A stretch of 64,000 nucleotides of DNA, taken from contig JACIWK010000004.1 in NCBI GenBank assembly GCA_014360985.1, forward strand, positions 1-64,000, read 5' to 3'. A program made the position numbers and the translations under genes. Positions 726-4,165 of this stretch are shown here, in pieces. This DNA comes from Candidatus Bipolaricaulota bacterium (GTDB taxonomy: Bacteria > Bipolaricaulota > Bipolaricaulia > Bipolaricaulales > Bipolaricaulaceae). Position 1 is the first letter of the stretch. Every line of letters begins with the position of its first letter. The notes under the pieces are model-generated. The model saw nothing but the letters and a program-made list of their open reading frames with translations. It had not been told where the DNA came from and made no database searches.

Positions 726-1694
726 TCAGCCCCCACGTTGGGCGGCCTCGGTGGCGAGCTCGTGGGCCCACTGGAGGGGCGGGGGGCGGGGCGCCCGCGC
801 GGTGAGGCCGAGGACGAGCTGGATTGAGCTCGCCACGTCGGCCCGGTGGCCAGGGGACACGAACAAGGTCCGGTTCCGGTCCGTGCGCAGCGCCGCCCCC
901 ACCGTGTCGTCGTCCAACACCACGGGCCTCCACTCGCCGATCGCCATCCCCGCCGTGTTCGCGTGGCCACAGAGGTGCCCCTTGGCGATCCCCACCGTCG
1001 GCTGGTCGAGGAGCACGCCGAGGTGGCTCGCCACCCCCGCGCGGCGCGGGTGGAGGATCCCGTTTCCGTCGACCAGGTACACGTCCGGCCGCAAGCCTCT
1101 GGCGTCGGCTTCCTCGATCGCCGCGAGGTAGGGGGGGATCTCCCGGTAGGAGAGGTAGGTCCGGATGTAGGGGAAGCGCACGGGCGCGCGGACGGTGAGG
1201 TGGTCGAGGATCTCCCCCTCGCGGTCGGCGAGGGCGAACGCGGCCACGGCCTCGCGGTCGGGGTAGGCGACGTCGAGGGCGCCGATCGTCTCCACCGCGG
1301 GGAGCGGGGCGAGGACCACCCGCCGCGCGACCTCGGCCTGCTCCTCCTGGAGCCGGGCCAGCGGCCGATCGGTCGGGAAGTCCCACACGAAGTACCGGGC
1401 CAACGGATCGACCCGCGACCCGACCACGCGCACGCCTTCAGCAACGAGCTGGGCGGCCGTTTCGTCGTGGGTCCCGCCCCACGTCCGGCCCACCGCGCCC
1501 GAGGCGTGGACGACGCGGTGCGCAGGGAGCCCCTCCGCCTCCGCCGAGGAGAGCCAACTAGCGATGAACGCCGCTGCGCCCGGGTCGCCGAGGGCCTCGG
1601 CCAGCGCGCGGTACGTGGTCACTCTCCCCGGTGGGATGGCGCAAACGAGCTCGCGGAGGGTGCGCTCGAGATCGGGGACGCGGAACTCAACCAC
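726..1694 (-). CDS. Alkyltransferase-like (ATL) domain fused to endonuclease V
   Basis: 322 residues, two domains. Residues 1 to about 90 resemble the DNA-binding domain of O6-alkylguanine transferases (PPGRVTTYRALAEALG, then PAHRV at 57-61). The acceptor cysteine of the PCHRV motif is alanine, as in non-catalytic ATL proteins that only flag alkylated guanine. Residues about 110-315 match endonuclease V (nfi), which nicks DNA next to deaminated purines: D141 in ALDVAY, E185 in SYREIP and D209 in LVDGNG match the metal-binding acidic residues. The GTG start overlaps the upstream lipoprotein gene by 8 bases, implying translational coupling. An AGT-EndoV fusion is known from the archaeon Ferroplasma, but there the cysteine is retained. 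The domain calls are firm; the role of the ATL half is inferred. Confidence 0.88.
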   Translation of the reverse strand: MVEFRVPDLERTLRELVCAIPPGRVTTYRALAEALGDPGAAAFIASWLSSAEAEGLPAHRVVHASGAVGRTWGGTHDETAAQLVAEGVRVVGSRVDPLARYFVWDFPTDRPLARLQEEQAEVARRVVLAPLPAVETIGALDVAYPDREAVAAFALADREGEILDHLTVRAPVRFPYIRTYLSYREIPPYLAAIEEADARGLRPDVYLVDGNGILHPRRAGVASHLGVLLDQPTVGIAKGHLCGHANTAGMAIGEWRPVVLDDDTVGAALRTDRNRTLFVSPGHRADVASSIQLVLGLTARAPRPPPLQWAHELATEAAQRGG

Positions 1695-2298
1695 AGCACC
1701 CGCGCGGCTCGATCCGCACCGACAAGTGAGCGGGATAGGACATGTCTCCGGTGGCGTCGACCACGACCAGGGTGACGAGGTAGTCCCCCGGCGCGCTGTA
1801 GGTGTGCGCTACCTCGGGGACGGTCGTGAACTCGGTCGTCCCGTCGTTGAAGTCCCAGCGGTACTCGGCGATCTCGCCATCAGGATCGTACGAGTCAGCG
1901 GCATTGAAGGTGAGCTGGTAGCCGACCTTGGCTGTGGAAGGGAACACCGTGAACCGGGCCACGGGGCGCTGGGAGTGGACGTACACCGTGGTCGAGGTCT
2001 GGTCCGTCGACCCGTCGCGGCCGACCACGGTGAGGTACACAACGTACGTCCCCCGCTGGTGGTAGGTGTGGGAGAGCGAGGGCTCTGAGCCGGTCGTGTC
2101 GTCCCCGAACGACCACAGGTACTCGACGATGTCCCCGCGTGAGCGGGAGGCATCGAACGTGGCGGTGAGGGGATAGGGCCCGTGGGCGGGACTGGGGTCC
2201 GTGACGATCACGGCCTGCAGGCCTGCTGTTACCGGGCCGAAACACCCAGCGAGGGGGAGGACGGCGAGGGAAAGGATCGCATACAGGTACTTTCGCAT
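1687..2298 (-). CDS. Secreted lipoprotein with two PKD domains
   Basis: About 203 residues. The N-terminus MRKYLYAILSLAVLPLAGC is a lipoprotein signal with a lipobox (LAGC), so the mature protein is probably lipid-anchored outside the cytoplasmic membrane. Two PKD beta-sandwich repeats follow, each with the hallmark pattern (YLWSFGDDTTGS, then YRWDFNDGTTEF), an aromatic-x-x-D/N-G segment, and HTY with a YxVxL strand. PKD domains mediate protein-protein or carbohydrate contacts; no catalytic domain is present. Two tandem ATGs follow the GGAGG at 2304-2308. The second (2298) has the better spacing of 5 bases, the first is at 2301. It is the first gene of a two-gene unit with the ATL-EndoV fusion, with no evident functional link. 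Confidence 0.75.
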   Translation of the reverse strand: MRKYLYAILSLAVLPLAGCFGPVTAGLQAVIVTDPSPAHGPYPLTATFDASRSRGDIVEYLWSFGDDTTGSEPSLSHTYHQRGTYVVYLTVVGRDGSTDQTSTTVYVHSQRPVARFTVFPSTAKVGYQLTFNAADSYDPDGEIAEYRWDFNDGTTEFTTVPEVAHTYSAPGDYLVTLVVVDATGDMSYPAHLSVRIEPRGCCG

Positions 2299-2401
2299 CA
2301 TGACCTCCTGGCGAAGCTTACCTCCCCGGGCCGGGGGTTCCAGGTGGGGCTGCGCCTGCCAGCGGACACGAGGTCCGGAACCAGGCACAACGGTGGGTGC
2401 C

Positions 2402-3861: not shown

Positions 3862-3892
3862 TCTCTTCCCGTCCCCCGGGGGCGGACGCTCC

Positions 3893-4165
3893 GGGAAACG
3901 GCCGTCGCAGACAAGCTGCGACGCTACGAAACCGGTCCACAGCTACGAAATTAGGGCGGTCTCGGGGTTACGTAGCGGCAGGGTTTATCCCTGACGGCCG
4001 TTCGTCGGTGACGGCCTCGCGTCGGACACAGGGTCCGCCGCTACAGAACCCTGCCGTTGGCCGTTGGGGTTCGTAGGGGCGGGTTTATCCCCGCCCGCGG
4101 CGTCGGACTGCGACGCTACGGAACCGGTCCACAGACCACGGACCCCGGACCGTTTGTTCCGTTGT
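3893..4165. repeat. REP hairpins between convergent lpd and DUF885 genes
   Basis: The 313-base gap between two converging genes is filled with REP variants. They include GTCGCAG-ACAAG-CTGCGAC (3904-3922), a copy with CAGGG-TTTAT-CCCTG near 3975-3992, GGAC-ACAGG-GTCC followed by GCTAC near 4025-4050, and GGGCGGG-TTTATC-CCCGCCC near 4077-4096. Stem bases differ but pair, while the GTAG/CTAC heads are kept. They may serve as a bidirectional transcription or RNA-stability barrier. No gene is present. Confidence 0.75.

Follow-up and report, generated by a model that had tools for sequence, protein, structure and literature searches.

Endonuclease V (EndoV) makes nicks in DNA close to deaminated bases, inosine for example. 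The alkyltransferases (AGTs) and the alkyltransferase-like proteins (ATLs) have three features in common: a helix-turn-helix motif, a tyrosine, and an arginine finger by which the damaged base is flipped out of the helix. In the ATLs, Trp mostly takes the place of the acceptor Cys, which is absent, and the His is retained, yet they have no transferase activity (PMC10779285). The two kinds of protein are also known fused in a single chain. The AGT-EndoV of Ferroplasma acidarmanus (Kanugula et al., 2005) is reported to have alkyltransferase activity (PMC10779285), as was also stated in a preliminary description of the DNA considered here, and archaeal ATL-EndoV fusions have been described as well (2023 review, PMC10779285, its reference 20), the EndoV in these being speculated to cut in an XPG-like role (PMC10779285).

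The window analysed here is a stretch of 64,000 nucleotides (contig JACIWK010000004.1) from a draft genome of 1.56 Mb (41 contigs). Its closest named relatives belong to Candidatus Bipolaricaulota/Acetothermia, and several of these bear the label Bipolaricaulaceae. The window encodes a fusion of this kind (Table 1), which is a well-conserved variant of a described architecture rather than a newly discovered read-and-cut enzyme. An alkyltransferase-like domain joined to EndoV had been claimed at this place with the strand unstated, and it is confirmed on the minus strand by Pfam and by homologues. The matches to DNA_binding_1 (PF01035, 50.8 bits, cut-off 27) and, after it in the same chain, Endonuclease_5 (PF04493, residues 123-311, 174.9 bits, cut-off 23.4) are both far beyond chance, and the motif LPAHRVV is present in the translation of the minus-strand ORF. 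Full-length homologues with 53-86% identity are found in more than 30 genomes of the same family, which confirms one continuous gene. On the plus strand a competing ORF of 309 aa runs over this stretch as well, and the minus-strand ORF is preferred because most family genomes contain full-length homologues of it. The GTG start is supported by the overlap with the upstream gene, since this overlap recurs in relatives. A similar PKD lipoprotein gene lies at the same place in 32 of the 33 family members, that is, in all whose contig reaches that far, and the overlap is mostly 8-17 nt. In addition, palindromic interspersed repeats, for example GTAGCGTCGGGGCTTGTCCCCGACGG and GGGCGGACACGAGGTCCGCCCCTACGG, are found at 91-706, about 2381-2438 and 3892-4053 of the window, both in the intergenic region that follows the fusion gene and close to the genes that come next; GTAGCGTCGGGGCTTGTCCCCGACGG occurs in six copies in the window, with none expected by chance.

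Table 1. Features of the fusion gene and its surroundings, in window coordinates.
Feature	Coordinates	Strand	Basis
Fusion gene, 322 aa	726..1694	minus	GTG start at 1694, stop 726-728 (coding 729-1694); Pfam and homologues
EndoV domain, residues 111-322	729..1364	minus	Pfam, alignment, fold match
AGT/ATL-fold domain, residues 1-107 (DNA_binding_1 at 11-88)	1374..1694	minus	Pfam, AlphaFold model, PDB matches
Ala58 (GCG), acceptor-cysteine position, motif PAHRV	1521..1523	minus	Alignment, codon comparison
Ala42, arginine-finger position (human AGT R128, S. pombe Atl1 R39), Arg lost	1569..1571	minus	Ungapped alignment
Tyr28, counterpart of base-flipping tyrosine (human AGT Y114), kept	1611..1613	minus	Alignment
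PKD-domain lipoprotein gene, upstream of fusion, 8-nt overlap with fusion start	1687..2301	minus	ORF list, neighbourhood comparison

The EndoV half looks catalytically intact. All six of its catalytic and wedge residues are kept, D141, Y176, E185, D209, K238 and H311 aligning with D43, Y80, E89, D110, K139 and H214 of the T. maritima enzyme, and the modelled fold matches solved EndoV structures (T. maritima 2w35 and 6ozf, E. coli 4xpu), although stand-alone EndoV, unlike the window's fusion, has no N-terminal alkyltransferase-type domain. The AGT-EndoV fusions of other Bipolaricaulota families (L044, L046, L048, L051-L056, also L038, L039, L041-L043) have a C-terminal tail resembling a sliding-clamp-binding motif (QLGLFDKL and QLSLFDKS, with QMALDL in others), and this tail is absent from the window's family and from the Planctomycetota fusions.

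The N-terminal domain, when modelled alone with AlphaFold, has a pLDDT of 92.3, and the best PDB matches of this model are the ATLs 2kif, 3gva and 3gx4 (TM 0.71-0.76), while the full-length model (pLDDT 96.8, pTM 0.92) suggests that the two domains are held in a defined mutual arrangement. Among genus members that have neither the acceptor Cys nor the arginine finger, dN/dS is 0.08-0.34 for the domain, a range comparable with that of EndoV (0.13-0.45), and these values, obtained by simple pairwise estimation from sequences of high G+C, show the domain to be still under purifying selection. A decaying domain or hidden pseudogene is ruled out by this range together with the open frame in relatives. 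Four residues of the domain, H59, R60, G66 and E86, are invariant in all 33 family members.

In AGT/Ogt proteins the acceptor Cys lies within PCHRV, and the window's protein instead reads PAHRV. This replacement of Cys by Ala, on which the preliminary description was built, is real as far as the absence of Cys is concerned, but Ala itself is not diagnostic, as none of the 33 members of the window's family has Cys and Val is the norm (26 members, with Ala in three and Gly, Ile, Leu and Ser in one each). The survey of fusions with variants of the PxHRV motif gathered 89 distinct fusions, mainly from Bipolaricaulota and Planctomycetota, with some from Thermoplasmatota and other archaea and two from Campylobacterota, most of the genomes compared being metagenome assemblies. 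Outside the window's family, Cys is present in 44 of the 56 fusions, the others having Ser (10), Thr (1) or Trp (1). When the tree is made with the key-residue columns left out, the family forms a single starred clade next to Planctomycetota that mostly bear Cys, and the Cys state has to change five times over the whole fusion tree, the simplest reading being that Cys was lost once on the stem of the family. At residue 58 the window's codon, GCG (Ala), differs by one base from GTG (Val), the codon found in the close relative L006.

Because the acceptor Cys is absent, the N-terminal half cannot, judging from its sequence, be an ordinary Cys-dependent alkyltransferase, which agrees with the earlier claim that it is no methyltransferase, and we infer that alkyltransferase activity has been lost in the fused domain. 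Two planctomycete fusions apparently lost the Cys separately, one of them (L129:1020-2006) having Trp at this site, as in classical ATLs (PWHRL), and the other (L118:3965-5008) Thr (PTHRV). In many Cys-bearing fusions (L038, L039, L041-L043, L047, L050, L057-L061) the residue that follows the Cys is Tyr or Trp instead of His (PCYKV, PCWRV), and their alkyltransferase activity is also uncertain for that reason.

Compared by description, the window's protein is like the Ferroplasma acidarmanus AGT-EndoV in joining the C-terminal part of an AGT to EndoV within a single chain, and unlike it in being without the acceptor Cys. It is closer in that respect to the archaeal ATL-EndoV fusions, in which a Cys-less alkyltransferase-like domain is joined to EndoV in the same type of domain order; again by description, it differs from these in belonging to a bacterial clade, in having Val or Ala rather than Trp at the Cys site, and in having lost the arginine finger.

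Alignment with the ATL and AGT families, which had been proposed as a check, supports an ATL-type assignment only in part. The domain has the fold of the AGT C-terminal domain without an acceptor Cys, and it shares with the ATLs (E. coli ATL, S. pombe Atl1, Vibrio ATL 2kif) this fold, the conserved Tyr and the PxHRV frame, besides having ATLs as its best structural matches. Unlike them, however, it has a nuclease attached, has no arginine finger, and carries Ala, or Val in most relatives, where most ATLs have Trp. The helix with Ala42 is aligned without gaps to S. pombe Atl1 and Vibrio ATL. Within the family the finger is Arg in 22 of the 33 members and Ala, Pro or Gly in the other 11, a distribution that requires three changes on the tree. 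The SNAP-tag likewise has Ala at this position in the alignment, where it was presumably engineered to weaken DNA binding; a literature search found no stated reason for this Ala with the terms used. Because its arginine finger is Ala, reading of O6-alkylguanine by the window's protein is doubtful, and on this basis it probably no longer reads that lesion, or does so weakly, while such reading is possible for the relatives that keep the Arg. It is nonetheless likely that the domain touches DNA in some way near the pocket, and the Arg could have been replaced in its function by another residue, because Tyr28 and the remaining helix-turn-helix region are conserved in the family. The order of loss is opposite to that in the window's family in some planctomycete fusions (L114, L116, L136, L137, L151), where the arginine finger is gone (replaced by P, K, L, T or V) and the Cys is kept.

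Also encoded in this genome are UvrC, an Ogt (L001) whose motif is PCHRV, and a free-standing ATL (L002) that has PWQRV and retains its arginine finger. Given these genes and Ala42, the proposal that the N-terminal half reads O6-alkylguanine damage is not supported for the window's protein. A free ATL is present in 8 of the 11 genomes with an Arg-less fusion, the window's genome among them, versus none of the 22 with an Arg-keeping fusion. The raw Fisher p of 1.2e-5 for this association ignores kinship, and a phylogenetically corrected test had three independent pairs, one or two of them in that direction and none opposite, with which significance was unreachable. No ATL match was found in three Arg-less genomes (G007, G015, G023), some of which are incomplete. 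Several of the genomes compared are incomplete, and in such genomes the absence of an ATL is weak evidence. The pattern suggests, as a lead rather than a result, that the job of reading has moved from the fusion to the free ATL.

Based on these observations, we favor, at about even confidence, the view that the protein is a predicted active EndoV with an accessory or scaffold domain that comes from an alkyltransferase and has neither the Cys nor the arginine finger, O6-alkylguanine being handled elsewhere. The N-terminal domain, docked on EndoV, would descend from the DNA-binding half of an alkyltransferase. Loss of the acceptor Cys on the family stem would have abolished alkyl uptake, and the further loss of the arginine finger in the window's lineage would probably have ended the reading of O6-alkylguanine. 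Since selection on the domain persists, its role is most likely that of an accessory DNA contact or a scaffold for EndoV, and O6-alkylguanine would instead be dealt with by the Ogt and by the Trp-type ATL together with excision that depends on UvrC.

A serious rival, mainly for the relatives with the arginine finger, is that the ATL-type domain flips and holds O6-alkylguanine unrepaired and EndoV nicks there in place of an incision of the NER type. This would fit a Cys-less domain whose modelled fold is best matched by ATLs and which is fused to an EndoV with intact catalytic residues, as well as the Arg kept in 22 of 33 relatives and the Tyr kept in most, and the idea has been published, as speculation, for the archaeal ATL-EndoV fusions (PMC10779285). 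We nevertheless regard it as doubtful, as the finger is Ala in the window's protein, the genome has a dedicated ATL with both Trp and Arg, and most of the family has Val, not Trp, at the Cys site. The preliminary description had put forward just such a direct read-and-cut enzyme; with Ala42 its reading of O6-alkylguanine is unsupported, and the concept itself was already available (PMC10779285). A mixed scheme, which we consider unlikely, is that in the Arg-keeping relatives a single chain truly both reads O6-alkylguanine and cuts there, Val being a new pocket residue for an ATL, and that reading has passed to the free ATL in the lineage of the window and in a few more, the fused domain now being a cofactor of EndoV for another lesion.

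Also unlikely is that the domain was re-purposed for another lesion or DNA structure, such as a deaminated base or a distortion, which it presents to EndoV. Selection continues after the loss of both key residues, and the His, Arg and Glu of the pocket are invariant, but there is no positive evidence for any particular lesion, and EndoV alone recognises inosine in other organisms, solved inosine complexes being among the structure matches. The counterparts of H59 and E86 activate the Cys in AGTs, and the invariance of these two residues might be taken to mean that alkyl transfer persists through another nucleophile; this is very improbable, as Val, which most relatives have at the Cys site, is unable to act as one. 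The ATLs, moreover, keep the His with no transferase activity (PMC10779285). Finally, an error of sequencing or assembly that turned Cys into Ala, conceivable in a draft of 41 contigs, is for practical purposes ruled out, since the family relatives come from independent assemblies and all are without Cys, with Val the norm.

What appears to be new here is the bacterial clade with Val or Ala at the Cys site, plus a second loss, that of the Arg, in part of this clade. Together the fusions are a natural series within a single architecture, from those with the Cys, through those with Ser or with Val or Ala in its absence, to those in which the arginine finger is gone too, and this series allows a test of whether EndoV acts on a lesion held by its fused partner, which is so far speculation in the literature. 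In the window's family, the loss of the arginine finger mostly alongside a free-standing ATL offers a case in which it can be tested whether one repair module has taken over the job of another.
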